From positions 1 to 45,740 of IMG/VR virus record IMGVR_UViG_3300005329_000006: a stretch of 45,740 bases of DNA. One strand, written 5' to 3'. Below are positions 6,717 through 42,628 of this stretch, piece by piece. The notes beneath the pieces were generated by a model. That model did not search any database and was not told the origin of the DNA. It was given only the letters and a program-made list of their open reading frames with translations. Source of the stretch: a virus. How positions within the stretch are numbered: the first letter of the stretch is position 1; each line of letters opens with the position of its first letter. The position numbers and the translations under genes were made by a program.

Positions 6717-7369
6717 AAAAACTAATCGTTCTTTTCCTGTTCATTGCGCTGGTAGTCGTCGCACAGCAAACCATTAACGTTGGCAAAATCGCCGGAACCG
6801 TCCCGTCTACCGCGGGAAAGTTCGACGTCAAAGCAGCCGACGGCGATATGTCGACGCTAGGCGCGAAGGCGGACGCGAAAAGCACCGCGACCGATACGAC
6901 GTCCGTTTCCATAATGCAGGTGCTAAAAGAAATTTCAGCGATGGAGCAAGCACCGGCGTCGCGCGCCGTTACGAATGCCGGAACGTTTCAGGTCCAACCG
7001 GACGGAACGACCGCCACGACGACGAACGCCGCTTCGCGATGCACGCTCGTCTCCGCGGCGTCGACGAACGCGACCAATTGCAAGAACGGATCCGGGAACG
7101 TTTACGGATTCCGCTTCGTCAATACGACCGGAACGCTTTACTACCTTCGCATGTATAACCTTTCGAGTTCGCCGACGTGCAGTTCGGCGACCGGCTTTAT
7201 TGAGTCGATCCCGATCCCGGCGAGCACGTCGGGCGCGGGCATTGTGATTATGGAACCGTTCGGCGAAGGGTATTCGACGGGAATCGGTTTTTGTTTTACG
7301 GGCGGCTCGAGTTCGACCGATAACACGAACGCCGCGACCGGCGTTTTCGGGTCAATTCTCTACCGATGA
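6713..7369 (+). CDS. Paralogue of the preceding gene, with signal peptide
   Basis: The 218 residues begin with MKK, a hydrophobic core (LIVLFLFIALVVV) and an AQQ cleavage region, a typical Sec signal peptide. The C-terminal 110 residues align with the preceding protein: AASTNA, then a small residue and Gly-rich turn, then YYLRMYN, then YSTGIGFCFTG. Four Cys (TLVSAAST region and after) could form disulfides outside the cytoplasm. A secreted member of a virion protein pair is unusual. It may coat the cell surface or be a host-derived fusion. The stop overlaps the next ATG. Confidence 0.8.
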   Translation: MKKLIVLFLFIALVVVAQQTINVGKIAGTVPSTAGKFDVKAADGDMSTLGAKADAKSTATDTTSVSIMQVLKEISAMEQAPASRAVTNAGTFQVQPDGTTATTTNAASRCTLVSAASTNATNCKNGSGNVYGFRFVNTTGTLYYLRMYNLSSSPTCSSATGFIESIPIPASTSGAGIVIMEPFGEGYSTGIGFCFTGGSSSTDNTNAATGVFGSILYR

Positions 7370-9606
7370 AACACGTTTTTTTCGTTCTCTTGCTCTTGCT
7401 CTTGTGCGTTCCGGGAATGGCGCAGATTGCTCGCGTGAGCGCAAATTGCACGGGAACTTCCAGTTGCACGACAACCGGGAACGCGACCGGCGATCTGGAA
7501 ATCGCGATCGCGGGAAGGGACGGAAGTTCGACCGCGCCGACGACGGCGACCGGATGGACAAGCGTCGGGACAGCAACCATCAATGGAACGAGCACCGCCG
7601 ACAGCGCGATCCGCGTCGCGTGCAAAGTAGCAACCGGCGCAAACGAAGCGTCGAACACTTTCACGAATGCGGACAAAGTTGTCGTCATGGTTTACAACGG
7701 ACAGGCCGCCGGAAATACCGCGACTTGCGCGAGTGCAATTCTGGGAACGCCGTCGTTTTTCACTTCCACCGTAAACACGACGACGACGACCGAAACATTT
7801 AACGCGATCACCAGCAGCAATGCGGCGTCTTGGATTGTCGGTCTTGGATACTGTTCCGCCTGTACGGCGGGCATTGGGACCGCGCCAACCGGGATGGCGA
7901 ACCGGAGTTCCGTTACCGGACCGCCAGCGGCGGGCGGACACGATACAAACGGGACCGCGGCGTCGTTCTCGTCGGCGAATGTCACACTGACAACCGCGGG
8001 CAGGATCCTAACGGCGACCGTCGAAATCAAGGCGGCATCCGCCGCCGATCCGACTTATGGCACGAACGGCGGAACCTTTGGAACGTCGGCGTCGACAACG
8101 ATTTCGACCGCGACCGGAAGCGCGACGCTTTGTTACACGACGGACGGATCGACACCGGCGGCGGCGACCGCCGGGACGTGTTCGGCGGGTTCCACTTATT
8201 CAAGCGCGCTCACGATCACGACGAGCGGAACGACACTGAAAGCGCTTGCCACAAAAAGCGGTTTGGTAAACAGCGCGGTTGTAACAAGTACCGCATTTAC
8301 GATCAATCGCTTTTTGCCAAGTCTGTCCTTGATGGGAATCAGCGGTCCGGGAAATTGCACCGCGGGCGGGCATACATACACGACGGCGTTTCCGACGGTC
8401 GAGAGTCCGTTGTCTGAGTGTCTGAGTTGGTTGAGCGGCGCGGGCACTGGTCTGGATTGGTCCAATATCAACGTGACGTCGGCGGCGGTTGCGAAAGGAT
8501 CGCAATCGACTTCGAGCGGAGTCTTCGACGATTCGATCGCGCAAGTCGTCGGCACATGGAGCAACGATCAAGAGGCGAGCGCGACGACGCTTACCGGGAC
8601 AACGAGCAACACGATCAGCAAAGAGCACGAATTGTTATTGCGGTTCTCGATCGGCGCTCACAGTTCGACCGGATATGAATTTCAATTCATCGGACAGCAA
8701 ACCACGCCCGCGAACTGTTCCGTAAATATCGTGAAATGGAACGGGACGATAGGCAGTTTCACCACGCTAGGCGGCGGGACGCTCGGCGTCGGCGGTTCGG
8801 CGGTTTGTCTATCGAACGGAACGCGGATCCGGGCGACCGCGGTCGGAACGACGCTCACGGCATACGTTAACGATGCCATGGCCTACACCGTTACGGATGC
8901 GACTTATGCATCCGGCAACCCGGGCATCGGAACGTATCTGCAAGGCGTCGGCGGGACGCAAGATTTCGGATTTAGTTCGTTTTCGGCGACGGACACCGTC
9001 CTTCGCTTCGTGCAAGAGGCGTCGCACCACGACACAAGCGGAACGACAAGCGCGGCAACGCTTGGAACAAATACGACGAACAATAATTGCTTGTGGGCCG
9101 CGGCTTACTGGAACTCGACGAGCGCGACGGCTACGGTTGCGGGTTCGGTTGCCGGTTCATTTACTGCAATCGATTCGCCGACGAACGGCGCGGGCGCGTT
9201 GTCTACATACCGCGCACAAGCGTTTTACAAATGCGGAATAACCGGCGGCGCTGAGACGGTGACACTCACGACTTCGACGTCGCTTACTGATCATGCAATC
9301 GTGGTGCATGAATTTAGCGGCGTGACGACACTCGATCAGCATCCGAGCGGGAAATCAGCAGCGTCCGCGACCTTGAGTTCGAACAGCGCGACGACGACGA
9401 CGGCGCGGGAATATCTTCCCGCCGCTTGCGTGATCGGCGGCTCGAGTCCGCTAGCTACTTCGCCATGGACGGCGCGCGATGTAACAGCGAATTTTGGCGG
9501 GAACATTTCCGCCGACTATGTAGTTACGGCGACCGGATCTTATGCGTTCGCCGGTTCGCAGAGTCCGTCAAGTGATTTCATTTGTCTTTTGAGCACATTC
9601 CAATAA
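7366..9606 (+). CDS. Large secreted multi-domain beta protein
   Basis: The 746 residues start with a signal peptide (MKHVFF, six Leu, then CVPGMA-Q). Residues about 20-215 are a Thr/Ala/Gly-rich beta domain with paired Cys. Residues about 225-300 match the chitobiase/beta-hexosaminidase C-terminal type repeat (GTSASTTISTATGSATLCYT, then DGSTP). Residues about 320-540 look like a LamG/concanavalin-type sandwich (LLLRFSIGAHSSTGYEFQF). The remainder resembles the first domain. These domains bind carbohydrate or surfaces. The export signal plus location in the virion block suggest a receptor-like or surface-displayed protein; a tail spike carrying a gained signal peptide is an alternative. Confidence 0.8.
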   Translation: MKHVFFVLLLLLLCVPGMAQIARVSANCTGTSSCTTTGNATGDLEIAIAGRDGSSTAPTTATGWTSVGTATINGTSTADSAIRVACKVATGANEASNTFTNADKVVVMVYNGQAAGNTATCASAILGTPSFFTSTVNTTTTTETFNAITSSNAASWIVGLGYCSACTAGIGTAPTGMANRSSVTGPPAAGGHDTNGTAASFSSANVTLTTAGRILTATVEIKAASAADPTYGTNGGTFGTSASTTISTATGSATLCYTTDGSTPAAATAGTCSAGSTYSSALTITTSGTTLKALATKSGLVNSAVVTSTAFTINRFLPSLSLMGISGPGNCTAGGHTYTTAFPTVESPLSECLSWLSGAGTGLDWSNINVTSAAVAKGSQSTSSGVFDDSIAQVVGTWSNDQEASATTLTGTTSNTISKEHELLLRFSIGAHSSTGYEFQFIGQQTTPANCSVNIVKWNGTIGSFTTLGGGTLGVGGSAVCLSNGTRIRATAVGTTLTAYVNDAMAYTVTDATYASGNPGIGTYLQGVGGTQDFGFSSFSATDTVLRFVQEASHHDTSGTTSAATLGTNTTNNNCLWAAAYWNSTSATATVAGSVAGSFTAIDSPTNGAGALSTYRAQAFYKCGITGGAETVTLTTSTSLTDHAIVVHEFSGVTTLDQHPSGKSAASATLSSNSATTTTAREYLPAACVIGGSSPLATSPWTARDVTANFGGNISADYVVTATGSYAFAGSQSPSSDFICLLSTFQ

Positions 9607-9613
9607 AACAAAA

Positions 9614-10687
9614 ATGCTTCTTGCTCTAAGAAGTCTCTATGAGTCGGCGGGTTCGGCGATTACAGGGACCGCCACGACTGCACAAGCGGCGCAGTCGGAC
9701 GCTCTAAGCGGCGCGCTCGAATTTACCGGGACAGAAACCAGCGCGCAAGCCGCGCAATCGACCGACGCATCGGGCGCGCTCACGTTCACCGGGACCGAGA
9801 CGTCGGCACAAGCCGCACAAACGGACGCTCTAAGCGGATCACTCGAATTTACCGGCACGGAAGCGAGCGCACAGGCGGCGCAATCGACCGCGGCGTCCGG
9901 ATCCGAGACTTTTACGGGAACCGAGACGTCGGCGCAAGCCGCACAGTCGACCGCGGCGTCGGGCGAAGAAACCTTCGCCGGAACTGAGACAAGCGCGCAA
10001 GCGGCGCAATCGGACAGCGCATCCGGCGCGGAAACGTTCACCGGCGCGGAAACCAGCGCACAAGCACAAACGGACGCTCTAAGCGGCGCTCTCGAATTTT
10101 CTGGAACAGGGGCGACGGCGCAAGCGGCGCAAAACGACGACGTCATCGCGACAACTGGTTACGACGGCACGGTCGCGAGCGCGCAAGCTGCACAGTCGGA
10201 CAGCGCATCGGGCGCGGAAACGTTTACGGGATCAATCGCGACCGCACAGTCGCAATCGACGGCGGCATCGGGCGCGGAAACGTTCACCGGCACAGCGACG
10301 ACCGCACAAGCCGCACAGAACACAATCGCCAGCGACGCAAGCGCGGTTACCGGCTCGATCGAGACTTCGCAAGCTGCACAGTCGGACACGGCGACCGGCG
10401 CGACAGTAGAACAGCAAGCGGGCGGATCGGCGGGACGTCAACGTCGACGATCAACCTACAATCCGCCGCGGATCCCGCGTCCATTGTCCGCGCCGCCTGA
10501 GATTATTCCGGCAATTTCCGGGACCGCTCGGACCGGGCAAACCTTGCAACGGTCGACCTTGCTCGCGAATTTGCATTTCGTCGGCGAGCACGAACAATTC
10601 CAGCAAAGACAAACCACCGCGGGATTCGGCGAAGTCGTCGACGTCGAACTCGAATTGCTTACAGCGATCATGCTCGAAGTCGCCTAA
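9614..10687 (+). CDS. Repeat-rich fibre-like protein
   Basis: The protein is 357 residues. After a short N-terminus (MLLALRSLYESAGS) it has twelve imperfect repeats of 20-21 residues with consensus TGTETSAQAAQSxAASGAxTF (residues 17-266). A basic linker (GRQRRRS) follows, then a C-terminal segment with ISGTARTGQTLQ and an acidic end. Similar repeat proteins (MLLALxSLYE start, TG-SxT-AQG units) are common beside phage capsid genes. An elongated fibre or collar role is inferred. The ribosome site is weak (only A-rich sequence before the ATG). Confidence 0.8.
   Translation: MLLALRSLYESAGSAITGTATTAQAAQSDALSGALEFTGTETSAQAAQSTDASGALTFTGTETSAQAAQTDALSGSLEFTGTEASAQAAQSTAASGSETFTGTETSAQAAQSTAASGEETFAGTETSAQAAQSDSASGAETFTGAETSAQAQTDALSGALEFSGTGATAQAAQNDDVIATTGYDGTVASAQAAQSDSASGAETFTGSIATAQSQSTAASGAETFTGTATTAQAAQNTIASDASAVTGSIETSQAAQSDTATGATVEQQAGGSAGRQRRRSTYNPPRIPRPLSAPPEIIPAISGTARTGQTLQRSTLLANLHFVGEHEQFQQRQTTAGFGEVVDVELELLTAIMLEVA
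9662..10411 (+). repeat. Twelve tandem 63-nt coding repeats
   Basis: These DNA repeats encode the 21-residue unit of the fibre-like protein. Ten units are 63 nt and two are 60 nt (units 7 and 10, each missing one residue). The units differ mainly in the variable part after AQAAQ: alternate copies read SDALSGALEF or STAASGAETF. The array therefore looks as if it grew by duplication of one-unit and multi-unit blocks. Confidence 0.9.
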
Positions 10688-10699
10688 GGAGAATTATTT

Positions 10700-11371
10700 A
10701 TGAAATTTAAAGACTTGAAATTGAATCTTACGAAGTCGATCACGGAAAAAGGCGAGTTCGAAGGCTATGCGTCGACCTTTGGAAACGAAGATCTCGGCGG
10801 CGACGTCGTCGAAAAAGGCGCGTTCACGAAGACGATCAGCGAAAACAAGAACGTTCCGATTCTCTGGGGACACAATATCCGGGAAGTGATCGGAGTCAAC
10901 AAAGACTTTTCCGAAGACGCGAAAGGTTTATTCGTCAAAGGACAATTGATCCTCGACGTGCAACGCGCCCGCGAGACGCACGCTTTGATGAAAGAAGGCG
11001 CAGTCAAAGGCTTGTCGATCGGTTACGACGCGATCCGCGTTGACTACAGCCGCGCGAAAGAAGGCGTCCGGATCATCAACGAAGTAAAACTCTATGAGTA
11101 TTCCGTGACAGCGTTTCCGATGAACGAGGCGGCGCAAGTTACGGACATCAAGAGCGCGGAAGATGCAACGCGCGCCATAAATGAACTGCTACTCATAAAA
11201 GATTGCACGAACGTCGATCATGCTTTGATCGATGCCGCGATCCAAAAACTTTCGTCACTTCGCGCCGCGAAAGCACTCGAAGCCGACAAGCACGGAAACG
11301 ACGCGCCGGAACTCTTCCACCCGTCGTTAGAAAAGCTCGACAGCATTTCAAAAATCTTACGAGGGGTTTAA
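10700..11371 (+). CDS. Prohead protease (HK97 type)
   Basis: This serine protease matures the prohead by cutting the capsid scaffold segment. The 223 residues fit the HK97/S78 family. GYASTFGNEDLGGDVVEKGA is near the N-terminus. His58 sits in ILWGHN and Ser106 in GLSIGY, the expected catalytic pair. YEYSVTAFPMNEAA follows. The C-terminal tail beyond residue 150 is extended and may be a scaffold or self-cleavage segment. It has a strong ribosome site (AAGGAGAA) and lies immediately before the capsid gene. Confidence 0.95.
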   Translation: MKFKDLKLNLTKSITEKGEFEGYASTFGNEDLGGDVVEKGAFTKTISENKNVPILWGHNIREVIGVNKDFSEDAKGLFVKGQLILDVQRARETHALMKEGAVKGLSIGYDAIRVDYSRAKEGVRIINEVKLYEYSVTAFPMNEAAQVTDIKSAEDATRAINELLLIKDCTNVDHALIDAAIQKLSSLRAAKALEADKHGNDAPELFHPSLEKLDSISKILRGV

Positions 11372-11375
11372 AGCA

Positions 11376-12584
11376 ATGGAAATCAAAGATATGGAAACTA
11401 AACTGAGCGGCATTGAAGCCGATCTCAAAACCTTTTTCGCAAAACACGCCGAAGAGTTCAAGGCGACCGGCGCGTCGTCCGCCGAAACCAAAGCCGCACT
11501 CGAAAAACTTGGCGAAGACTGGAAAGAATGTTCTTCGCGCTTGCTCGCGGTCGAGCAAAAGATCGTCTCGCGCAACGATCCGGGCGCAACCGAAGTAAAG
11601 AGCGTCGGCGACTTGATGGTCGAATCCGAAGGTTTCAAGGCAATGGCGAAAGGTGCGAACCGTTCCGGACAAATCAAAGTCGGATCGTTCCACAAAACCG
11701 CTATCGTCAATGCAACCGGACAGAATCAACCGCTCGTCCCAGATATGCGCGTTCCGGGAATCATGGGGCCGGGACTTCGCCGTCTAACCGTCCGCGATTT
11801 GATGCCAAATTTACGGACGTCTTCGAATCTCGTCCAGTTCGTGCGGGAACTTCTCTTCACGAATAACGCAGCATCGCAAACCGGCGGCTCGCCGAACTCT
11901 GGCGAGAACGTCGCAAAACCGGAATCGGCGCTGACGTTCGAAATGGAGAACGCGCCCGTCGAAACCATCGCGCACTGGATCCCGGCGTCGCGTCAGATCT
12001 TGGACGATGCGCCCGCACTTTCCGCTTACATCAACTCGCGTTTGCTCTTTGGTCTGAAACTCGAAGAGGAACGTCAATTGTTGCTCGGAAGCGGATCCTC
12101 GAATAACTTGTCCGGACTGGTAACGGAGGCGACCGCGTACGACACGGCGCGAACCAACGTCGCGACTGATACGTTTATGGACGTAATCCGTCACGCGATC
12201 ACACAGGCGGAAGCGTCGTTCTTCGACGTCGACGCGGTCATTCTTAACCCGCAGGATTGGGAATCGATCGAATTGACGAAGACGAGCGGATCCGGCGCAG
12301 ACGGGCGTTACATCTTCGCAAACCCGCAATCGATCGCAACTCCGCGACTGTGGGGGAAGACCGTTGTCCCGACGTATGCAATGCCGCGATCACAATTCCT
12401 CGTCGGCGCGTTCGCACTCGCCGCGGCGATCTGGGATCGAGACGACGCAACCGTCGAAGTAAGTCGCGAACATTCGGATTTCTTTATTCGAAACATGGTC
12501 GCGATCCTTGCGGAAGAACGGTTAACTTTGACCGTTTATCGTCCGTCGGCGCTCGTTTATGGCGGGTTCCCGTACGGAAGCTAG
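11376..12584 (+). CDS. Major capsid protein (HK97 fold)
   Basis: The 402 residues fit the Phage_capsid (HK97) family. Residues 1-75 are a charged coiled-coil delta domain expected to be removed by the protease. The mature shell protein has the characteristic N-arm and E-loop region with GENVAKPESALTFE, then IAHWIPASRQILDDAP, and near the C-terminus RLWGKTVVPTYAMP, FALAAAIWDRDDATVEVS and AILAEERLTLTVYRPSA. GAGGGG lies upstream of ATG 11376. A strong intrinsic terminator follows the gene, consistent with high expression. Confidence 0.97.
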   Translation: MEIKDMETKLSGIEADLKTFFAKHAEEFKATGASSAETKAALEKLGEDWKECSSRLLAVEQKIVSRNDPGATEVKSVGDLMVESEGFKAMAKGANRSGQIKVGSFHKTAIVNATGQNQPLVPDMRVPGIMGPGLRRLTVRDLMPNLRTSSNLVQFVRELLFTNNAASQTGGSPNSGENVAKPESALTFEMENAPVETIAHWIPASRQILDDAPALSAYINSRLLFGLKLEEERQLLLGSGSSNNLSGLVTEATAYDTARTNVATDTFMDVIRHAITQAEASFFDVDAVILNPQDWESIELTKTSGSGADGRYIFANPQSIATPRLWGKTVVPTYAMPRSQFLVGAFALAAAIWDRDDATVEVSREHSDFFIRNMVAILAEERLTLTVYRPSALVYGGFPYGS

Positions 12585-12628
12585 AATTTAAACGCGCAGC
12601 AACAAAAAGCAGGCTGGTTGCCAAACTT

Positions 12629-12662
12629 GGGCGGGCGCTTTCGGGTTCCCGCCCGATTTTTA
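12629..12662 (+). terminator. Intrinsic terminator after the capsid gene
   Basis: A perfect 7-bp GC stem, GGGCGGG (12629-12635) with CCCGCCC (12648-12654), is followed by GATTTTT. It lies between the capsid gene and the glycosylation cassette and should end or attenuate the capsid transcript. Confidence 0.9.
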
Positions 12663-12669
12663 AAAACAC

Positions 12670-12906
12670 ATGGAAACAGAAAAAAGAATTCGAGTGCAAA
12701 TGACGAAGCGTGATCAGAATCGCCAAGCGGGAAGGTTCTACAACCTACCGGCACCGGAAGCGCGGCGATTGATCGAGATGGGAAAGGCCGTCGTCGTTCT
12801 CGGACCATCTGAGACGAAGCCGATCGAACCGGGCGAAACGAAACTGATTGAACCGGGAACGAGACGAAGTAAAAAAAAACGGATCTCGGCGGACTCCGAA
12901 TCCTGA
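12670..12906 (+). CDS. Small phage protein; upstream half of a possible frameshift fusion
   Basis: The protein is 78 residues and basic, with RFYNLPAPEARRLIEMGKAVVV. That matches the pattern (xxYxLPxxxAxxLIxxGxA) seen in short phage proteins near capsid genes. Read in its own frame it ends in a KPIEPGETK/KLIEPGTR repeat and a Lys-rich tail, at TGA 12904-12906. A run of nine A (12871-12879) near its end would let ribosomes slip -1 into the open frame of the following glycosyltransferase, producing a fusion. It lies just after the terminator, so it starts a weakly transcribed or separately driven cassette. Confidence 0.75.
   Translation: METEKRIRVQMTKRDQNRQAGRFYNLPAPEARRLIEMGKAVVVLGPSETKPIEPGETKLIEPGTRRSKKKRISADSES
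12871..12879 (+). promoter_or_regulatory. Poly-A slippery run, candidate -1 frameshift site
   Basis: Nine consecutive A are read AGT AAA AAA AAA CGG in the upstream frame. A -1 slip gives AAA AAA ACG GAT CTC and then the conserved start of the glycosyltransferase domain. The -1 frame has no ATG, GTG or TTG before TTG 13011, which would cut off a conserved strand. An assembly or sequencing error in the A run is the main alternative. Confidence 0.6.
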
Positions 12907-14519
12907 TTGCGATCAAAACTTGCCACAAATACCGTCATCGCGCCGATGCTCAACGAAGAACATGGATTCCCGACGTCGAGGGATGCGATCTCCGATTCTT
13001 TCTTGGCCGGTTGGAAGGCTATCAACCGCGGGCGGACGAAATCGTGTTGGATGTCGCGGACGATTACTTATCTTTACCGGACAAAACTCGGGCAATTTGC
13101 AAGTGGGCTATTGATCAAGGCTTTGATTACATTTTTCAGTGTGACGATGACGTTTATCTTCGGCCTGAGCGATTGCTTGATTCGGGTTTTCAATCCTTCG
13201 ATTACGTTGGACGACTTCGCGGTCCTAGCGGGAAATATCCCGCGCCGTATTGCTCGGGTTTTTCTTATTGGCTCTCGCGAAAGGCGATGCAAGCCGTGAT
13301 CAATGCGCCATGGAACGGCGATACCGCCGACGATCGATTCGTCGGAAACGTCTTGCAAGACGCTGGAGTCGTCGGCGCACTCGACGAGCGTTACCAGATC
13401 ACGCAAATAAACGAAGCGCTTCCGCCCGGCTACAAAGGCGATTTCGCTCGCGAGGACGAAATGGTAGGTAACGCCGTTTATGGCGCGGGACTTCGCGGCG
13501 CGGCAGACTACCGTTACAGGTTGATCAGCGCTTTCCAAAAGTCCGATTTGCCGAATACCGAAACGCCGGGCGACGGACCGCGGGAAGGAAACGACATCAT
13601 TTCCGCGTGCGAGTTCGAGCCGCAAGCGATGGAACGCATTCACCGCCAGTTTTTACAGTTCATGGGATCCCCGCGACCGTTACTTCCGGACGGCGAATTT
13701 TCGAGCGTTTGCGTTCTGATCAAAACCTTTTTGCGCGACCGCCATCTCGAGGAAACGATCCGCGGTTTGCAAATGCGCGTCCCGGAAATCAAGATCGTTG
13801 TCGTCGACGACGGCGAAGACACAAACCGGAAAATTCAACTCGCGCAACGCTTGCGCGATCAAGGGCATGTTTATATCTGGTTGCCGAAAGACTCGGGATT
13901 CGGCGCGAAAGCAAACGCCGGGATCGCGGCTTGCGATCGCCCGTTTGTGCTGATCGGATCGGACGACTTCGATTTCAACGAAGGATTATTCGTTCGCCGC
14001 GGGATCCGCTCGATGCTCACAGTCTTAAACAGTCGTCCCGAGATCGCGGTCGCGTCCGGGCGCGTCGACAATATCCCGTATGAGTTTCTGTTAGATCTGG
14101 GTGACGACTGGGCACAGATGAAACGCGGACACCGCGGAAACGGATCCGTCGGTCCGGTTCAATACCAGTTGTGCGATTTGACCGTTAATTACTCGCTGAT
14201 CAGGCGCGAAGTTTTCGACGTCGTTTCATGGGATGGCGACAAGGATTCTCCGAAAATAGGTGGCGGCGAGCACGGCGCTTTCTATGTCGACTTAAAGCGC
14301 GCCGGATTCCAAGTCGCTTACGTCGTCGGCGTAAATATCAATCAATTGAAACGGATCAAACCGGATCCGCGCTATTTAGAAATGAGAATGCGCGCGCTCT
14401 CGCCTGAGCGTCCGTGTTACTTGCGGCGCGGGATCAAACACTTTCGAAATCCGGAAGGCATTTGTGAAATGTGCGGAACAAGATGCGCAACGGAAAATCG
14501 CCCGGCAACGATTCAATGA
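12903..14519 (+). CDS. Two-domain glycosyltransferase: GT31-like plus GT2-like
   Basis: This protein has two putative GT-A domains. The first (about residues 1-140) is GT31-like: IAIKTC, RRTW, FFLGR, LDVADDY, ICKWA, the metal-binding acidic triad CDDD (Asp81-83), RPERLLDSGF and SGFSYWLSRKA. The second (from about 269) is GT2-like: VCVLIKTFLRDRHLEETIRG, IVVVDDGED, AKANAGIAACDRPFVLIGSD. The C-terminus ends with a CxxCxxxC cluster. The 5' end is uncertain. The conserved domain begins at about 12900, but no standard start codon lies there, so it may be entered by -1 frameshifting from the preceding gene, or from a rare CTG (12903). It transfers sugars to an unknown acceptor, possibly a virion protein or host surface glycan. 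The stop overlaps the next ATG. Confidence 0.85.
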   Translation: MIAIKTCHKYRHRADAQRRTWIPDVEGCDLRFFLGRLEGYQPRADEIVLDVADDYLSLPDKTRAICKWAIDQGFDYIFQCDDDVYLRPERLLDSGFQSFDYVGRLRGPSGKYPAPYCSGFSYWLSRKAMQAVINAPWNGDTADDRFVGNVLQDAGVVGALDERYQITQINEALPPGYKGDFAREDEMVGNAVYGAGLRGAADYRYRLISAFQKSDLPNTETPGDGPREGNDIISACEFEPQAMERIHRQFLQFMGSPRPLLPDGEFSSVCVLIKTFLRDRHLEETIRGLQMRVPEIKIVVVDDGEDTNRKIQLAQRLRDQGHVYIWLPKDSGFGAKANAGIAACDRPFVLIGSDDFDFNEGLFVRRGIRSMLTVLNSRPEIAVASGRVDNIPYEFLLDLGDDWAQMKRGHRGNGSVGPVQYQLCDLTVNYSLIRREVFDVVSWDGDKDSPKIGGGEHGAFYVDLKRAGFQVAYVVGVNINQLKRIKPDPRYLEMRMRALSPERPCYLRRGIKHFRNPEGICEMCGTRCATENRPATIQ

Positions 14520-15232
14520 ACGAACACGACGAACGGGAAATCATCCAAGAGGCAAGCGGGCGGCTCGCGAAGTTCGAAGGGATGCGGCTTTTGATTGGCG
14601 TCGTTAGTTGCGCGCGCGATCGCGAGTCTCACGAACTGATCAGACAAACATGGGCGAAGGACTCGCCGGTCGCGGTCCGTTTCTTTGTCGGTCGCGATTG
14701 CCCGACAACTGAGATCGACGAAATCGCGCTCGACGTCCCGGACGATTGGAACGGACTACCGGCAAAGGTGCAAGCGGTTTGCCGATGGGCGCTCTTTCAC
14801 GGCTATGACTTCTTGTTTAAATGTGACACTGATTCTTACGTCTCGATTGCTAGACTCTTGGCATCGGGATTTGAGCGCTGGCATTACATGGGCGGATGCG
14901 GCGAAAGCGAAAATGTATATCCCGACTCCTGTTTTCCCGCCAACGGCGGAGGTTATTTCCTCAGTCGGCGCGCCTTGTCCTTTCTCGCGGAACATATGAA
15001 TTTGGGACTCGGTAAAAATTGCGAAGACTGGTGTGTCTTTTTGTCGCTTATGCGAGGCGCGTCGATCTTCGTGCACCACGACGCGCGCTTCCGGGCGAAC
15101 CGACCGGAACCGGGACAGGGTCCGAGCGCGGATAACGACTTCGTAATCTTGCACGACGCGGGCGAACACTCGCTCCGAAATCCCGAACGAATGATCCGCG
15201 CACACGAAGCGGCAACGGAGTTGGTTTTTTGA
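14516..15232 (+). CDS. GT31-like glycosyltransferase
   Basis: The 238 residues are a single GT31-like domain: LLIGVVSCARD, LIRQTWAKDS, FFVGRD, LDVPDDWNGLPAK, CRWALFHGYDF, the metal-binding CDTD (Asp104, Asp106), SGFERWHYMGG, a GGGYFLSRRAL motif and Glu170-Asp171 in the position of the family's acidic base region. It is a paralogue of the first domain of the preceding gene and of the following gene. ATG 14516 overlaps the preceding stop (ATGA); upstream in-frame GTG 14471 and ATG 14483 would extend into the previous gene. GT31 members are mostly known from eukaryotes. Donor and acceptor are unknown. Confidence 0.85.
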   Translation: MNEHDEREIIQEASGRLAKFEGMRLLIGVVSCARDRESHELIRQTWAKDSPVAVRFFVGRDCPTTEIDEIALDVPDDWNGLPAKVQAVCRWALFHGYDFLFKCDTDSYVSIARLLASGFERWHYMGGCGESENVYPDSCFPANGGGYFLSRRALSFLAEHMNLGLGKNCEDWCVFLSLMRGASIFVHHDARFRANRPEPGQGPSADNDFVILHDAGEHSLRNPERMIRAHEAATELVF

Positions 15233-15942
15233 AACCCCTGATCGCGGTTCTCACTTGTTGGACGTTCGAGGTGAACGGACACAATGACGCGCTTCGCCGC
15301 ACATGGTTGAAAGACGCGAAAGGTTTATTCGATTACAAGTTCTTCGTCGGGACCGGGCAAGGCGCGGAAGCCGCGGCGCTTCCACCGGACACAGTCTTTT
15401 TGCCGGACGTCGACGACGGACAGGGCGCGGTTACATACAAGCTACGCGCGGCGCTTCGCTGGGTTTGCGAGCGCGATTATGAGTTCGTTTACCGATGCTT
15501 CCCAGATACCTACGCGCGCCCGGAACGACTTCTCACTTGCGGATTCGAGGCGCACGACTATCACGGCGACTTCCGCGGCGAACATGCAACGCCCGACAAC
15601 TACCCGTCGGGCGGTCCGGGAAACTTTATGTCGCGCCGCGTTATGGAACTCGCGCTCGACGCACCGATCGAGGGACCGGGCGCAGACGGAAAACACACAC
15701 GCGTTTGGCCGTATGCCGACGATCTTTGGTTCGGGCAAGTCTTGAACTGGCATCGCGACAAAGGTTTCCGATATTTCGACGATTCTCGCTTTATCAACCG
15801 CGGATCCCGAGCCGTCGGTCCGCTCAAGACAAACTCGATCGTCGCGACGCATCTTTCCTGTCCCGACTACCCGAAACCTTACTCGCCGGGAATTATCGCG
15901 CACATGCTCGACCGGCATCGCGCATGGTTGGCGTCGCAATGA
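15229..15942 (+). CDS. GT31-like glycosyltransferase with altered metal motif
   Basis: The protein is 237 residues and the third paralogue: LIAVLTCW, LRRTWLKDA, YKFFVG, KLRAALRWVCERDYEFVYRC, RPERLLTCGFEAHDY, GNFMSRRVMEL and YADDLWFGQ. Where the other two read CDDD or CDTD, this one reads CFPDT (Asp93 retained, first Asp replaced by Phe). It may therefore use a different metal geometry or be inactive. TTG 15229 overlaps the preceding stop (TTGA) and has GGAG eight bases upstream. The stop overlaps the next ATG. Confidence 0.8.
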   Translation: MKPLIAVLTCWTFEVNGHNDALRRTWLKDAKGLFDYKFFVGTGQGAEAAALPPDTVFLPDVDDGQGAVTYKLRAALRWVCERDYEFVYRCFPDTYARPERLLTCGFEAHDYHGDFRGEHATPDNYPSGGPGNFMSRRVMELALDAPIEGPGADGKHTRVWPYADDLWFGQVLNWHRDKGFRYFDDSRFINRGSRAVGPLKTNSIVATHLSCPDYPKPYSPGIIAHMLDRHRAWLASQ

Positions 15943-16562
15943 ATACCGCAACAATGGCTCGCCAGATCGCCGCGGAAGCGATCGCAATCGAACCGGGAAA
16001 CCAGAACGAAGGCGAGTTCTCGGAATTGATCGCAATGCTACTGACGACGAACCCGATGCGAAACGTCATGGAAATCGGGACGGAACGCGGTTGCTCGTTC
16101 TATGCGTGGTGCAAGGCAAGCGCGCCCGACGGCGTGAAGATCTCGCTTGATTGGGGATGGGGCGCGAGCGGGACCGGCAATTTCCGGACCGCAGAAGCGC
16201 GCGCGGAACGCGATAACCGTTTGCTCGGATACGCGAAGAACGTTTATCGCATCGAAGGCGATTCGCACTTGCCGGAAAACCGAATGCGCGTTCAATCGAT
16301 CTTGCACGGCGAACCGCTCGATTTCCTTTTTATCGACGGCGATCACTCGGAAGCGGGCGTCCGGCAAGACTGGGAAATGTACGGACCGCTCGTTCGACCG
16401 GGCGGAATCGTGGCATTTCACGACATCAAGGAATGTGAGTACCACACGCGCGCCGGTTGTTTCGTTCATAACTTTTGGAACGGTTTGACCGGCGTCCGCA
16501 AAAGCGAATTGATCTCGCGCGAGCATGTTTGGGGCGGGATCGGAGTTGTGTTTCCAAGTTAA
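15939..16562 (+). CDS. SAM-dependent methyltransferase (class I, Methyltransf_24-like)
   Basis: The 207 residues show a Rossmann pattern: motif I VMEIGTERGCS (residues 43-53), FLFIDGDHSEAGVRQDWE (about 129-146), then VRPGGIVAFHDI (about 152-163) with the usual His-Asp after the strand. This arrangement belongs to the class often found in glycan clusters (Methyltransf_24/cephalosporin hydroxylase-like). It is the last gene of a translationally coupled cassette with three glycosyltransferases, so it probably methylates the sugar they add. ATG 15939 overlaps the preceding stop. A longer in-frame opening to 15495 is only overlap. Confidence 0.85.
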   Translation: MNTATMARQIAAEAIAIEPGNQNEGEFSELIAMLLTTNPMRNVMEIGTERGCSFYAWCKASAPDGVKISLDWGWGASGTGNFRTAEARAERDNRLLGYAKNVYRIEGDSHLPENRMRVQSILHGEPLDFLFIDGDHSEAGVRQDWEMYGPLVRPGGIVAFHDIKECEYHTRAGCFVHNFWNGLTGVRKSELISREHVWGGIGVVFPS

Positions 16563-16589: not shown

Positions 16590-17000
16590 ATGAGCACAGG
16601 AATCACGGGCAGGATCACGAAGTCTTTTTCTTTGGGCGGGACGAGCGTTTCGATCCCGAGCGATTCTCAAACCGCCGACACCATGGTCAAACTCGAAACG
16701 ACCGTGTCACCGGCAACAACGAACTTTCACCGCATCTTGCAGGTTCCCGCGGCGCTGATCAAGATGATGTCGATCACGTCCAACAAGGCCGTTACCATTA
16801 AAACGAATTCGTCGGGCGCGCCGGATCAGACGCTCTCAATCGGCGCAAATCAAGGTTTGGTTTGGTCGATTACGGATGTCGCGACGATCCCTTGCCCGAT
16901 CACGGACGATATAACCGACGTTTACATCTCTAACGCGGGCGCGGACGAAGCGGACGTGAAATTCAATTTCCTGATCGATCAACCCGGCGTCGGAAGCTAG
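16590..17000 (+). CDS. Small structural-type phage protein (136 aa)
   Basis: The 136 residues show beta-strand alternation and are rich in Thr, Ser and Ile, with VSIPSDSQTADTMVKLETTV, TIKTNSSGAPDQTLSIGA and DVYISNAGADEADVKFNF. There is no signal peptide. A strong ribosome site (CGGAGGAACTA) and a following terminator-like hairpin suggest a well-expressed virion component, perhaps a decoration protein. The same 11-nt leader sequence precedes the secreted gene at 40064. Confidence 0.7.
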   Translation: MSTGITGRITKSFSLGGTSVSIPSDSQTADTMVKLETTVSPATTNFHRILQVPAALIKMMSITSNKAVTIKTNSSGAPDQTLSIGANQGLVWSITDVATIPCPITDDITDVYISNAGADEADVKFNFLIDQPGVGS

Positions 17001-17073: not shown

Positions 17074-17715
17074 ATGTCAATTACTCTTTGCGAACTCGAC
17101 GACTTGAAAGGTTGGCTCGGACTTGAGGACGACAACACGGAAGACGACGTACTCAACCGACTGATCGAATCGACTTCCGCGGACTTTCTTCGCGAGATCC
17201 GGCGTCCCGATTTCGCACCAACCGCGGAATTTACGGACCGGATCCCCGGATCCGGATCGTCGGAACTATTTCTCAGACACTACCCGATACAGGAGATTTC
17301 GAGCGTCTTCGTTAACGGGACGGAAATCGAAGAGTCGTTCGACGGAATCACCGCGCCCGGTTATTTCTTCGACGATCAGGCAACGCCCGAAGACCGGCAG
17401 AAAATTATTCTCGTCGGTTCGGTCTGGGCGCGCACTTGTTACGGGATCCCGAACGTCGTCGTCGAGTATGACGCCGGTTATCCCGCCGACGAGATCCCGC
17501 CCGACGTGACGCAAGCGGTTATCGAATGGATCGGATGGAAGCGCGGTTACTCGCAATTACAGCAACAAAATCAGGCCGATGTTACTTGGCAGCAATTGGG
17601 CGAGTATCAATCGGCATTCTCCGCGGGCAAGGCAACTCTACAGGCAAGCGCGTTCTCGACGCCGCAAAGCGTCGGCGACGTGCTCGCAAAATATATGAAG
17701 GCGCGCGAGTTCTAA
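17074..17715 (+). CDS. Head-tail connector (HK97 gp6-like)
   Basis: The 213 residues are of the gp6/DUF-type adaptor class that attaches under the portal. The N-terminal helices (LDDLKGWLGLEDDNTEDDVL, NRLIESTSADFL) are typical. FLRHYPIQEISSVFVNGTEI and VVVEYDAGYPADEIPPDVTQ, followed by WIGWKRGY, match the usual adaptor pattern. AAGGA lies upstream of the ATG. The following genes are the stopper, tail-completion and tail terminator types in the standard order, which supports the call. Confidence 0.9.
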   Translation: MSITLCELDDLKGWLGLEDDNTEDDVLNRLIESTSADFLREIRRPDFAPTAEFTDRIPGSGSSELFLRHYPIQEISSVFVNGTEIEESFDGITAPGYFFDDQATPEDRQKIILVGSVWARTCYGIPNVVVEYDAGYPADEIPPDVTQAVIEWIGWKRGYSQLQQQNQADVTWQQLGEYQSAFSAGKATLQASAFSTPQSVGDVLAKYMKAREF

Positions 17716-22873: not shown

Positions 22874-23257
22874 ATGGCACTCGACGACACTTTCCCGAAA
22901 ATCGTTTATCAGGGCGTAACGTTGCTTTTCTCTTATCCCCCTGTAATGAAGGCGCAAACCAACAAACGAAGCGCGCTTCGTCACGACTCGGTTACGCTTT
23001 CCGGTTTGCGGCAAAGTCTTTGGTTCCGGACCGATCAGTTCTTCGAAATGCAACTCGACTTCGTTCCGCAAGCGGACATCGAAGACTGGGCGACGTTCAT
23101 CGAATACGCTTTGCAGGGCGGCGACTTCGCTTACTATCCGGACCGAACGCAAGCCGACTTCGTTTCGTTCTTGTTGGAAGATACCGATTGGGATCCGAAG
23201 TTCGCATTTCGTAATATGGACAAATTCACTTTGACGCTTCGCCTGTTTGTCGAATGA
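22874..23257 (+). CDS. Tail tip protein (distal-tail-like)
   Basis: The protein is 127 residues and all-beta in pattern: IVYQGVTLLFSYPPVMKAQT, LSGLRQSLWFRTDQFFEMQL, then ADIEDWATFIEYALQGGDFA and a C-terminal strand KFTLTLRLFV. Short proteins of this type follow the tape measure in siphophages and form part of the distal ring. The stop overlaps the next ATG. Confidence 0.75.
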   Translation: MALDDTFPKIVYQGVTLLFSYPPVMKAQTNKRSALRHDSVTLSGLRQSLWFRTDQFFEMQLDFVPQADIEDWATFIEYALQGGDFAYYPDRTQADFVSFLLEDTDWDPKFAFRNMDKFTLTLRLFVE

Positions 23258-24624
23258 TCACGCCGCCTAGTCTCTGGAGTACCGTCAATTCGTTTCACAA
23301 TAAAGCCCCCGTCTTTCTCGTCGAGATCGAAACTTATGGTCGATCTTTTACAAACGTCGAGATCGGGTTCGGCGGGTCCGTGCCTTGGCTCGTTTCGCTC
23401 GAAGATCTCGCGTTAACGATTTCGGATCTCGACGGCGGCGCGGATCTCGCGGAGTTTACATTCGTCGTTCAAGACCGCGGGCGCGTGATCGTCGCCAGTA
23501 TGCCGACCTTCACATTCGAAGGGAAAGCAGTCACGTTAAAGACTGGTTTTCAGGGAATCGCGGTTACCGATTATGTGACGCTGTTTACCGGGCGCATCGA
23601 TCAAGTCAATTCCGTAAACGGCGGTTTAGAGTGGCAGTTCGTATGCTCCGACAATTCCATCTTGCTCGAACCCGCGGTTTATTTGACCGGCGACGACGGG
23701 CGACCAACCGACGGCGATCACCGTAAAACTGTGATCGGTCATCCACTCGACATCCTCGAAGCGATCCTCGTCGATCATCTCGAAATCGATATCGGGCTTA
23801 TTAACCTAACGCGCTTGCACGCATACCGCGACGGGATCTTCGACGGGTTCGAGTTCTCGTTCTCGCTCGATACGCCGCCGAACGCAAAAGATTTTATCGA
23901 AGCGGAGTTAATGAAGCCGCTCGGCGGTTACATGTGGGTGAATAATCTCGGGCAGTTTGATTTCAGTTTCTTCTATCCGGAATCGGATGCGTCGGTCCGG
24001 ACGTTGACCGAGGCGGTTACTTTCGAAATCCCCGACGTCTTGCAATCCGATCTCGTCAACTCCGTGCGTTTCCGCTTCGATCACGTCGAGGACACGGAAG
24101 GGAACACTTCGTCCGCCGATTTTCTGGCGGAATCGATCAACAATTTCGCGCTCTCGATCGACCGTTACGGACTGACCGGCGAACAAATCATCGAATCGAA
24201 GGGGATGCGGTCCGGACTTGCCGGTTTCCTTTTGGCGAAGATAATCTCGCGCCTGATCGTGTTCCGTTACGGTTTGAAAAACTTGCGAATCGAAACCATG
24301 CCGTTCACTTGGACGGAATGCATTCTCGAACCGGGCGACGTCGTGACGCTGGAAAACTCGTCGATCCCGGACCGCGAGGCGGGCGCGATCGGCATCTCAA
24401 AGAAACTTGTCGTGCTCGATCGTAATTGGCGGTTCATGGACGGCGTCGTCGAATATACGTTGATCGATGGGAGCTATCTCGACAAGTTCAAAGCCTACTT
24501 GATCACGACGGACGGACAGGCGGATTACACCGCGAGCGATTCAGCGCATCAACTGAGCGATATGTTTCTTTGTAACGACTCGAATCAATACTCGACCGGC
24601 GCACCGGGCCATACTCTCGCATGA
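23254..24624 (+). CDS. Tail tip / baseplate hub-like protein
   Basis: The protein is 456 residues: PVFLVEIETYGRSFTNVEIG, LEDLALTISDLDGGADLAEF, then a TGFQGI..TLFTGRIDQV segment typical of hub-type phage tail proteins. The remaining beta-rich domain includes VTFEIPDVLQSDLVNSVRFR and ECILEPGDVVTLEN. The position after the distal-tail-like gene and before the tail tip fibre supports a hub role. ATG overlaps the previous stop; its own stop overlaps the next start. Confidence 0.8.
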   Translation: MITPPSLWSTVNSFHNKAPVFLVEIETYGRSFTNVEIGFGGSVPWLVSLEDLALTISDLDGGADLAEFTFVVQDRGRVIVASMPTFTFEGKAVTLKTGFQGIAVTDYVTLFTGRIDQVNSVNGGLEWQFVCSDNSILLEPAVYLTGDDGRPTDGDHRKTVIGHPLDILEAILVDHLEIDIGLINLTRLHAYRDGIFDGFEFSFSLDTPPNAKDFIEAELMKPLGGYMWVNNLGQFDFSFFYPESDASVRTLTEAVTFEIPDVLQSDLVNSVRFRFDHVEDTEGNTSSADFLAESINNFALSIDRYGLTGEQIIESKGMRSGLAGFLLAKIISRLIVFRYGLKNLRIETMPFTWTECILEPGDVVTLENSSIPDREAGAIGISKKLVVLDRNWRFMDGVVEYTLIDGSYLDKFKAYLITTDGQADYTASDSAHQLSDMFLCNDSNQYSTGAPGHTLA

Positions 24625-26714
24625 GTCTGACTCTTTCCCAGATTCCCGGATTCTCGGATCTTTCAAACGCTTCGCTCGAAGCGGGCGACATCGCGCACTC
24701 GATCCATTTAGCAAAGATCGACTCGAACGGAAATTTCGGCGTCGCGCGAACAGAAATCTTTACGGGATTTTTCACGAACGGGCAAACCGTACCTTTGCCG
24801 ACGTCGCCGATCGACGGTTACAACTATTCCCGATCGGAATTAATGTACGCATGGGCGACGGGATCGACTTTCAATTACGCGACGGGATCGATCTCGGGAA
24901 CGGACGCGCTTTGGTTCGCCGCTTGGGGCGTCAATCAGTCGACCGGACTCGTTTCCACTTTCGAGGCGTATCGCCGCTCTGGCGATCATTCTGATCCGAC
25001 GCAATCGAACGACGGCGTTTTGTTTGTTTACGTGATCGCACAGCGTCAGAATAACGCGATCATTATCGCGACGCCGCCGACGTTCACGGATCTGGGAAGT
25101 TATGCGTCCGACGATCCGTTTAACGAATCACTCGCGCAAGCGCTCAACGACAACTCGAAATTCTCGATCGTCGCGAGCGAAGTTATTTACATGGGCGAGT
25201 TCGTCGACGGCGGAACTGTTCCGCAACCCGTTTCCCTGCTCGACGGGCACACTTACGCTTACGCGAACGTCAAGTTTATGGCGTCGTGGCGTTGGACGGC
25301 GTCCGGCTCGAGTTTCGCGCAACCGGATTCGACCGTCGAGCAACTGGGACCGATGCAATGGTCGATCAATGCCGGAACAGGCGCGGTCGACATTACCGTC
25401 CAATACTCGATCGATGGCGGCGAGAACGTCACCACAAAAGCAAACCATGGGCGAATTTCTGTAATCGCGTTTTGCGATCGACTGAGCGGCGTCACACTCT
25501 CGCCCGCGGCGGACGACTTTGTCGAGATCGATTCCGACTTGTTTCTACCGGGCGAACCGCTTCGCGCATCGACGATCAATCAAATGATCAAGAATCAGGA
25601 GCAAGCGGTTTGTACTCCTGAATTTTTCGGACCGACTGATTACGGCGACGGTGACACGATCTCGCTTCCGACTTCGCCAGTCGACGGATACAACTACGCG
25701 CGGAATGAAGTTATCTATGTCTGGGAATGGAACGACACGACGCCGAACACCGGCACGCACTTACGCATTGCGTCATGGGCCGCGGTTGTCGATCAGGCGA
25801 CGGGAACGGTCGATCTCAAGATCTGGCGCGTCCCGCCCGGATCCGCGTTCGACCAAACGGACGGGTTCGGTTCGATCAAGGTTGTCACGGTTGGCATCCG
25901 GCAACGCGCGGCGTCGGTCGCAATCGATCCAACCGCGCCGCCGTCGGCGACGGGCGGATCGCCGCCGTCAACCGATGATCCGTTCGCGGATGGCGCACCA
26001 CGACGCGGCGACATCTGGCGATTCAATCTCTATAACGATGCGAAATGGGATCTCGCAGCAGCGCCGATCCGTTGCGTTTACTGTATGGGCGGAACGACGA
26101 CGCTTTTAAACTTCGGCGGCGTCAATCAGCTAGGAACCGCGAGCGCGCCGTTACCGCACGGTGACAACGATTGCACGCCAACCGATTTCAGCGCCGCGGC
26201 GTCCGGCACGACGGTGACGCGCATCGGCGCGACGCAATTAGTCAACGGAAATGGCGGACTCGTCCCGCCGAACACGATCCATCGGTATTCGAATTACTGG
26301 AAGCCGACGTCGACGTCGAGCGTTCGTTACTGGTTAGGACTCGCGCAAGCGCTCGCACTCAATACGGCGTTCTTCGCGTCCGACACTCCGAATACAATTT
26401 ACGCCGCGTTTCGTTACAGCGCGGGCGTCGATTCCGGTTGGCAAGCGGTCGCGGGAATCTCGAACGCGGCTTTTACCGTGGTAAGTACCGGCGTCGGATT
26501 CGATTCAACACAGGCGCACTTATTCGAGATCGCCGTCGAGCAATCGACGTTTTATTTCTATATCGACGGAATTCTCGTCGCGACCATCTCGTCGAATACG
26601 CCCGCATCGACGGCACGACTCGCGCCGTTTTGGTGCGCGGATAATAAGAATCTGGCGGCTACAACCGCCGCTACTCACTATTGGATGTCGCTATCGCTGA
26701 AATGTTCGGTTTGA
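24621..26714 (+). CDS. Tail tip fibre / receptor-binding protein
   Basis: The protein is 697 residues with a threefold internal repeat: FFTNGQTVPLPTSPIDGYNY, then FVDGGTVPQPVSLLDGHTYA, then DYGDGDTISLPTSPVDGYNY, each followed by a strand reading as MYAW, MASW or IYVW. A Pro/Thr linker (about 430-450) leads to a C-terminal LamG-like sandwich (about 560-697) with HLFEIAVEQSTFYFYIDGIL. Repeated stalk plus terminal lectin-like domain fits the receptor-binding end of the tail. Confidence 0.85.
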   Translation: MSLTLSQIPGFSDLSNASLEAGDIAHSIHLAKIDSNGNFGVARTEIFTGFFTNGQTVPLPTSPIDGYNYSRSELMYAWATGSTFNYATGSISGTDALWFAAWGVNQSTGLVSTFEAYRRSGDHSDPTQSNDGVLFVYVIAQRQNNAIIIATPPTFTDLGSYASDDPFNESLAQALNDNSKFSIVASEVIYMGEFVDGGTVPQPVSLLDGHTYAYANVKFMASWRWTASGSSFAQPDSTVEQLGPMQWSINAGTGAVDITVQYSIDGGENVTTKANHGRISVIAFCDRLSGVTLSPAADDFVEIDSDLFLPGEPLRASTINQMIKNQEQAVCTPEFFGPTDYGDGDTISLPTSPVDGYNYARNEVIYVWEWNDTTPNTGTHLRIASWAAVVDQATGTVDLKIWRVPPGSAFDQTDGFGSIKVVTVGIRQRAASVAIDPTAPPSATGGSPPSTDDPFADGAPRRGDIWRFNLYNDAKWDLAAAPIRCVYCMGGTTTLLNFGGVNQLGTASAPLPHGDNDCTPTDFSAAASGTTVTRIGATQLVNGNGGLVPPNTIHRYSNYWKPTSTSSVRYWLGLAQALALNTAFFASDTPNTIYAAFRYSAGVDSGWQAVAGISNAAFTVVSTGVGFDSTQAHLFEIAVEQSTFYFYIDGILVATISSNTPASTARLAPFWCADNKNLAATTAATHYWMSLSLKCSV

Positions 26715-41565: not shown

Positions 41566-41774
41566 AAATCAATTTAAAACACTCGTTCACGGTCGGATCT
41601 ATCACGCGCGATTTCGAATTTAATGCGGAATTGCCGGACGACGCAACCGCTGATCAGATTCAGGCTTGTTTCGAGGGACTCGCCGCTCAACTGGAAGAAG
41701 TCACGCGGGATCTGAGCGACGTTTCCGCGGATCTGGCGGTCGCGGATCTGAGTAAAAATCCGGGCGGCGCATGA
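41562..41774 (+). CDS. Early protein of unknown function (70 aa)
   Basis: The protein is 70 residues, beta then helical: MKINLKHSFTVGSITRDFEF, then ADQIQACFEGLAAQLEEVTR and an Asp-rich end. ATG 41562 overlaps the previous stop. No family is recognised. Confidence 0.65.
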   Translation: MKINLKHSFTVGSITRDFEFNAELPDDATADQIQACFEGLAAQLEEVTRDLSDVSADLAVADLSKNPGGA

Positions 41775-42628
41775 GTCTCGTTAACATCAAACCGAATCTC
41801 GACGCGCCCGCGATTCGAGTCTTTCCCGGTCGCACACCTTGGACGCCGGACGACGAACTCGCCTTTGTCGGTTATCCCCCGTTATTTCGTCCCGGCAATT
41901 ACGAAACGCCGGTTTTCGTGAGCGTCGTTTTTAAATGGTTACGGAAGCGCGGCGAAGAACTGGCGCGCGCTTGGGGCGATTACTACCGAAACGTGCAGAT
42001 CGGCGGTCCGGCTTATGACGGCGGCGCGGGCGGCGCATTTACGCCGGGAATGTTTCTAAAAAAAGGCTGCACGATCACAAGCCGCGGATGTACTAAGGAC
42101 TGCGGTTGGTGCGTCGAGCGTTTTAATCCGCTCATTGAATTGGACATAAAACCCGGTTGGATCGTTCAAGACTCGAACCTTTTATCGTGCTCGGAAAAAC
42201 ACGTCCGGGCCGTTTTCGATATGTTGCGCGAACAAAGGCGGGCGATCTTTTTTAACGGCGGACTCGACAAACACTTTCTCAAAGACTGGCATCGACCGTT
42301 ATTCGATTCGATCAAGATTGGGGAACTCTGGTTTGCTTGCGACGTAACGAAGGATCTTTCTTGGATGGAACGAGCGGCGGGAATCTTGGACGGAATACCA
42401 CTTCGCAAGCGTCGTTGTTACACAATGATCGGTTACGACGACGAATCGCTCGCGGACGCCGAACGCCGGATTGAGCGCGTGTTCGAACTCGGGTTTATGC
42501 CGTTTTGCCAGTTATATCAACCGGACGACTACGTCAAAGTTTATGCGGACGACTGGCGCGCACTACGGCGCAAATGGTCGCGTCCGGCGGCATACATGGG
42601 AAAACAAAATCCGGGCGGGACGCAATGA
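41771..42628 (+). CDS. Radical SAM-like enzyme
   Basis: The protein is 285 residues with TITSRGCTKDCGWC, the CxxxCxxC triad (Cys107, 111, 114) of radical SAM enzymes that binds a 4Fe-4S cluster. The N-terminal part (VFVSVVFKWLRKRGEELARA, NVQIGGPAYD) and later IIFFNGGLDKHFLK-like and MIGYDDESLADAERRI segments fit a TIM-barrel radical SAM fold. Its substrate is unknown; candidates are nucleic acid, peptide or sugar modification. ATG overlaps the preceding stop; its stop overlaps the next ATG. Confidence 0.85.
   Translation: MSLVNIKPNLDAPAIRVFPGRTPWTPDDELAFVGYPPLFRPGNYETPVFVSVVFKWLRKRGEELARAWGDYYRNVQIGGPAYDGGAGGAFTPGMFLKKGCTITSRGCTKDCGWCVERFNPLIELDIKPGWIVQDSNLLSCSEKHVRAVFDMLREQRRAIFFNGGLDKHFLKDWHRPLFDSIKIGELWFACDVTKDLSWMERAAGILDGIPLRKRRCYTMIGYDDESLADAERRIERVFELGFMPFCQLYQPDDYVKVYADDWRALRRKWSRPAAYMGKQNPGGTQ

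Follow-up and report, generated by a model that had tools for sequence, protein, structure and literature searches.

Glycosyltransferases encoded near phage structural genes are already known. Work by Freeman in Cell Host Microbe (2023) is said to describe glycosylation of mycobacteriophage virions, and we know of no GT31 or GT12-like enzyme described from that system. According to an excerpt of PMC12619734, mycobacteriophages encode glycosyltransferases and carry glycans on their capsid and tail-tube subunits. In family GT31, PMC9065035 gives a DxD motif, an xED base and a C-terminal His (C-His) as landmarks and notes that the DxD is absent from Cosmc, which partners C1GalT1; for B3GNT2, PMC7948508 assigns metal binding to the third Asp and the His and has the first Asp pointing toward the site of the donor sugar. 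Here we analyze four overlapping genes in the IMG/VR virus record IMGVR_UViG_3300005329_000006 (45,740 bases, hereafter the window), which encode three GT31-like proteins, the first fused to a GT12-like domain, and a methyltransferase, and which a preliminary description of the sequence had read as a glycosylation cassette. As far as our searches go the cassette is previously undescribed, phage-encoded glycosylation itself being known: a literature search (phage glycosyltransferases, virion glycosylation, GT31, Fringe and GT12; titles and abstract starts) returned no description of a phage GT31 cassette.

The enzyme assignments of the cassette proteins are almost certainly correct. All four genes lie on the plus strand, and the 4-nt overlaps reported earlier are all present (CTGA at 12903, ATGA at 14516, TTGA at 15229 and ATGA at 15939). 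The GT31-like domains proposed for three proteins were recovered with PF01762 in gene 1 (12894-13445, group 'a'; 7.8e-10) and gene 2 (14516-15232; 7.2e-6). Gene 3 (15229-15942, group 'c', TTG start) had no match in the Pfam search of window proteins and is assigned by paralogy, with blastp values of 8e-26 for proteins 1 and 2, 1.5e-22 for 1 and 3 and 7e-19 for 2 and 3. Of the motif pattern said to be shared by the three proteins, protein 3 has no CxW and protein 2 reads RLLASGF instead of RxERLLxxGF. A profile built from a 13-row alignment of relatives, including all three window GT31 proteins (A1), matched C1GalT1 best among PDB entries (3.4e-13), followed by B3GALT6, B3GNT2 and B3GALT5. Fold models were made for genes 1 and 2. 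With the gene 2 model (predicted local distance difference test (pLDDT) 86.3, predicted template modeling score (pTM) 0.88), the first 37 Foldseek rows were all GT31 or CHSY/CHPF chains, which sets the protein inside the GT-A fold as a GT31 member, and the first half of the gene 1 model aligned with B3GalT5 (Z 16.5) and B3GalT6 (Z 15.7). By profile and predicted structure, the window family is placed among C1GalT1, B3GalT, B3GNT2, CHSY and Fringe; for the human enzymes we use what we take to be the CAZy family numbers.

The domain fused to gene 1 (13698-14444), first described as GT2-like, does match PF00535 (1.3e-7) and is of GT-A type, but is GT12-like rather than a generic GT2. A 21-row profile matched B4GALNT1 at 3.6e-19 and K4 chondroitin synthase at 8e-9, and residues 273-527 of the gene 1 model aligned with B4GALNT1 at Z 22.4 (root-mean-square deviation (r.m.s.d.) 2.7, 234 residues), the next structural kinds being FKRP (Z 18.2) and polypeptide GalNAc-transferases (~17). 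Profile and modeled structure agree on B4GALNT1 as the closest solved relative. Next in Foldseek for gene 1 came the two-headed GT-A enzymes CHSY-CHPF, LH3, K4CP and LARGE1, although superposition across both domains gave r.m.s.d. values of at least 18 Å. The Methyltransf_24 assignment of gene 4 (15939-16562) was borne out by Pfam (9.6e-15), and its profile matched 6g7d best in the PDB (2.3e-8), an entry we take to be the mycobacterial methylmannose 1-O-methyltransferase MeT1. A portion of PMC9883506 that deals with MeT1 does not name 6g7d. Judging from these profile matches, gene 4 probably encodes an O-methyltransferase that acts on a sugar.

The same set of parts recurs in other phages. Searching IMG/VR with A1 gave 112 relatives, of which 80 were kept, representing 78 loci, and methyltransferase loci and one genome contig were added. 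Six loci (L056, L075, L076, L078, L089 and L091) carry a GT31 domain fused to a GT12-like domain, then GT31, Methyltransf_24 and GT31 genes; in the window these parts recur, but its final Methyltransf_24 and GT31 genes are swapped. In a further locus, L088, the order is GT31, GT31, a free-standing GT12-like gene with 46% identity to its window counterpart, GT31, a gene of unknown function and Methyltransf_24. Seven fused homologues, among them that of L073, share 47-49% identity with gene 1. When the 91 loci were grouped into 63 clusters, 36 held at least two GT31 domains and 22 a strong GT12-like domain, which lay no more than 300 nt from a GT31 domain in 20 of the 63. With the same set present in 8 distinct records, the four genes very likely form one functional unit, as had been proposed. 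Window positions 10045-16261 recur without a difference in L004, a contig of 6,217 bases obtained from a different sample. The arrangement is thus no artifact of a single assembly, although L004 is no independent lineage.

The preliminary description had attributed the three GT31 proteins to duplication, and this did not survive phylogenetic analysis. We built a careful tree from 62 selected domains. Gene 3 clusters there with its third-position counterparts in the other six cassettes (support 95/88), and gene 1 falls in a set of 16 (97/94) together with the first GT31 domains of those six cassettes and one GT31 domain of L088. Because genes 1 and 3 group with counterparts elsewhere, the GT31 genes did not arise by duplication within this phage, and the tree rules out local triplication of a single gene. 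Gene 2 joins L005, L006 and L012 with weak support (84/32), while the other second GT31 genes form a group of their own (99/98). A larger, quick tree did not reject the 'a' group as one clade (P = 0.604, approximately unbiased test). In these trees the three GT31 proteins belong to separate lineages of long standing, and an exchange probably took place at the middle position.

The lineages also differ at the catalytic landmarks. At the DxD position, gene 1 has DDD, gene 2 DTD (in CDTD) and gene 3 FPD, with RCFPDTY in place of the full motif. An xED is present in all three, as ADD(R) in gene 1 (DDR read as xED), CED(W) in gene 2 (in CEDWC) and ADD(L) in gene 3; the C-His is found in genes 2 and 3 and is not aligned in gene 1. 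Of 131 distinct domain strings (out of 182 matches), 129 retain the third Asp and 103 have Asp or Glu at the first position; at the C-His column 38 are gapped, and His accounts for 72 of the remaining 93. Because FPD is common to the third GT31 gene of all seven cassettes, the window and the six relatives, we reject the idea that gene 3 is a decayed copy. In 14 of the 63 clusters an FPD domain is present, and every such locus also holds a GT31 with intact DxD; more broadly, domains lacking the first Asp were found in 24 clusters, 23 of which also hold an intact one. This pairing is no more than suggestive and may be due to chance, because multi-copy loci are common (36/63). CHPF with CHSY is a known partner pair that parallels Cosmc with C1GalT1. 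At three loci an intact-DxD and an FPD domain were seen within one polypeptide of ~560 residues (L030 7911-9602, L067 42-1727 and L085 957-2627).

Genes 1 and 2 had no tblastn match in a phage collection of 50,697 records, gene 4 had two distant ones, and a plasmid record matched the first half of gene 1 distantly (27.5%, 2e-4). Bacterial contamination, raised earlier as a possible source of the cassette, was rejected: when 84,980 species genomes of bacteria and archaea were searched with a single narrow pattern, a test that does not imply absence from bacteria, the one related contig returned was phage-like. This contig, L088 (1689-2819 and 5669-10442), is filed as an uncultured archaeon and carries phage-like genes and a bacterial-type DNA polymerase III beta; it is probably a misbinned bacterial phage.

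The window itself comes from a tailed phage: it encodes a terminase, a portal protein, a head protease, an HK97-type capsid protein, an adaptor, and neck, tail and tape-measure proteins. As described earlier, the cassette is flanked by the major capsid gene (11376-12584, plus strand; phrog_10, E = 1.8e-63) and the head-tail adaptor gene (17074-17715, plus strand; phrog_442, E = 2.4e-21), although a plus-strand open reading frame (ORF) of 136 amino acids with no assigned function (16590-17000; 25% Ser+Thr) intervenes between cassette and connector. The reported capsid terminator corresponds to a plus-strand stem followed by T5 at 12641-12656, 3' of the capsid gene, found in a terminator-site search; such sites are as frequent in shuffles (9 in the region versus 8.0, s.d. 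3.2), so their count is not significant. In a host-directed comparison, all terminase matches were below 60% identity and scattered over many genera, and the tail protein had no match. In the right half of the window, 41771-42628 encodes a radical SAM-like protein (phrog_9298, 3.2e-11).

Gene 1 is preceded by a plus-strand ORF of 78 amino acids (12670-12906), which overlaps its start. This ORF has weak PHROG matches of unknown function (best E 0.004), and its only match in IMG/VR was the identical contig L004. The CTG start at 12903 given for gene 1 is doubtful. The frame is open from 12873 to a stop at 14519, homology continues upstream of 12903, and the Met with which seven homologues start aligns with CTC (12894) in the window, where the residues that come next (RIL) fit the common pattern of the homologues; coding therefore seems to begin before the CTG. 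The frame opens inside a plus-strand run of nine A (A9; 12871-12879), the only 9-base homopolymer in the window, which is identical in L004 and lies within this upstream ORF, read there in another frame. One possibility is therefore −1 slippage at A9, which would fuse the upstream ORF product to gene 1; starts at ATC 12900 or CTG 12903 are possible alternatives. Directly 3' of A9 is an 8-bp stem with one bulge (12881-12903, plus strand; centroid fold −8.5 kcal/mol), which was dropped as a slippage stimulator as the 71-nt region folds like shuffles (z 0.18). On the opposite strand, A9 is the T-run of a minus-strand terminator-like site that shares the hairpin sequence. Elsewhere, at L007 6004, a GT31-like gene overlaps the previous stop (ATAA) and has ATA at the conserved start, with no ATG, GTG or TTG.

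Taken together, the cassette, whose enzymes are like those that act on glycans of the animal cell surface, may be a soluble, phage-encoded assembly line for a short O-methylated oligosaccharide. The two-headed gene 1 product, with its GT31-like and GT12-like domains, would add two sugars in succession and gene 2 another; gene 3, of the FPD lineage, could add a sugar through an altered donor site or partner a canonical GT31 as Cosmc does C1GalT1; gene 4 would then methylate a sugar hydroxyl, capping or marking the chain. The acceptor would most likely be a virion protein made at the same time. We infer the sequential action, the sugar identities, the sugar methylation and the virion target. The four proteins have no membrane segment (no 19-residue hydrophobic window above 1.02), and the cassette lies in or beside late structural modules in 7 of 8 records. 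Because of the lack of membrane segments, the absence from 10 records of above-cut-off base-modification genes of two kinds and the location in late modules, we favor a cytoplasmic, late-made acceptor, the simplest being a virion protein. We put the chances of the complete scheme, from soluble assembly line to virion acceptor, at about even, and those of the virion as target no differently; of the two targets named in the preliminary description, the virion stays the best guess and a change to the host surface is the alternative.

Several observations weigh against the scheme. The gene 1 model is of middling quality (pLDDT 67, pTM 0.53), and gene 3 lacks the first Asp of DxD while retaining the third. 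A terminator-like site separates the cassette from the capsid gene, and the six relatives carry it past the tail genes and not beside a capsid gene, 3' of homologues of window tail genes 23254-24624 and 24621-26714 (36-48% identity; a tape-measure homologue was seen in L078 and L089). Because the set sits among head genes in the window and beyond the tail genes in these relatives, related phages hold it in two different structural modules, and the earlier step from head-gene position to capsid decoration gains little. In L088 the cassette adjoins DNA polymerase III beta, Toprim and helicase-like genes. A phrog_10 HK97-type capsid gene is present in 9 of 50 records, with the GT31 gene within 3 kb in two, 5-9 kb away in three and at least 17 kb away in four. 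In the wider family, we scanned 136 of 144 chosen neighbors from 48 other loci: those of known family are mostly nucleotide-sugar enzymes and glycosyltransferases (Epimerase 18, GDP_Man_Dehyd 17, GT2 14, GT11 7 and FkbM 5, the GDP-mannose dehydratases, epimerases and FkbM methyltransferase being joined by GT11/GT10 fucosyltransferase-type and GT6 enzymes), and structural neighbors are few (TerL 2, head closure 2). Finally, the region beyond the tail genes of integrase-bearing phages is also a usual place of conversion genes.

Much of this bears on the main rival explanation, lysogenic conversion or superinfection exclusion, in which the enzymes would modify a host surface polysaccharide during lysogeny or late infection. 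Five of the six close relatives have an integrase and the sixth, L089, a resolvase, their cassettes lie beside lysis genes (downstream of the cassette, Pfam identifies a glucosaminidase- or lysozyme-like gene in L056, L075 and L076, and L091 has one judged by sequence similarity only), and the family-wide neighbors would supply nucleotide sugars. However, such a pathway fits poorly with four proteins that have no transmembrane segment. No flippase, polymerase or ligase was among the first 25 Pfam and PHROG families listed for the 136 neighbors, and no Gtr-type flippase or polyprenol transferase was seen beside the cassette, where the window has head genes or small ORFs. The window also had no integrase match and holds its cassette inside the head genes. 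We regard conversion as possible, though somewhat doubtful.

A second alternative is DNA hypermodification, with the sugar chain built on modified phage bases; virus-encoded glycosyltransferases reportedly put diverse glycans on DNA (work by Pyle in 2024). Against this, a thymidylate-synthase/hydroxymethylase-type gene (PF00303) was found in 0 of 10 records, some of which may be fragments, and DNA_methylase (PF00145) exceeded the cut-off in 0 of 10, with one sub-threshold stretch in G044; a Tet_JBP search had no match even in its controls and counts as no evidence. As the cassette also sits in structural modules, away from base-modification genes, this explanation appears highly improbable.

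The enzymes might instead glycosylate an exported or adhesin-like phage protein that is not part of the virion. Two window products come into question, those of 7366-9606 (746 residues, 30% Ser+Thr, with a PF13290 chitobiase C-terminal-type domain, encoded among head genes) and 9614-10687 (357 residues, Ser/Thr/Ala-rich, encoded between the portal and protease genes). Both are rich in Ser+Thr (28-30%); the first has a hydrophobic N terminus (2.53) that by eye we take to be signal-peptide-like, the second has 63-nt repeats (~20-residue TETSAQAAQS repeats), and L075 encodes a weakly similar protein (2e-6) beside its cassette. They are possible acceptors but are not conserved with the set: no homologue of either was found in the examined stretches of other relatives, and a cytoplasmic cassette would need to act before export. 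We consider this explanation distinctly unlikely. Returning to the virion-directed assembly line, we also think it unlikely that the cassette is a cytoplasmic counterpart of animal GT31 and GT12 enzymes with an FPD GT31 as obligate partner of a canonical one, that the virion bears a fixed O-methylated oligosaccharide and that gene 1 is made only by −1 slippage at A9, extending the ORF next to the capsid gene.

The set offers a compact, soluble model for enzyme types that have so far been investigated mainly in the Golgi of eukaryotes, and it makes the role of DxD-lacking GT31 partners accessible in E. coli. It also points to wider, little-explored virus-encoded glycan pathways, in which GT31, GT11, GT6 and GT10 enzymes occur beside nucleotide-sugar genes.

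Compared with described systems, the cassette shares phage-encoded glycosyltransferases with mycobacteriophage virion glycosylation, as far as the excerpted source goes, but consists of a four-gene set with an O-methyltransferase and a predicted product. Gene 4 resembles the MeT1-like Methyltransf_24 sugar methyltransferases (6g7d), its best profile match. B4GALNT1 (GT12, ganglioside GM2/GD2 synthase) is the nearest solved relative of the fused domain, which is ~20% identical to it and, unlike it, is fused to a GT31-like domain and lacks a membrane anchor. Like gene 1, CHSY/CHPF, K4CP and LARGE1 have two GT-A domains per chain, one of them GT31 in CHSY; the arrangement of the domains differs or stays blurred (r.m.s.d. 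15-30 Å for alignments spanning both), and the second domain of gene 1 is GT12-like, not GT7. With the GT31 enzymes of animals (C1GalT1 with Cosmc as partner, B3GALT, B3GNT2 and Manic Fringe), the phage proteins share the GT-A fold (modeled for genes 1 and 2), the DxD (genes 1 and 2), the xED (all three) and the C-His (genes 2 and 3), whereas they are viral, soluble and only ~200 residues long, and include an FPD lineage without the first Asp of the DxD.

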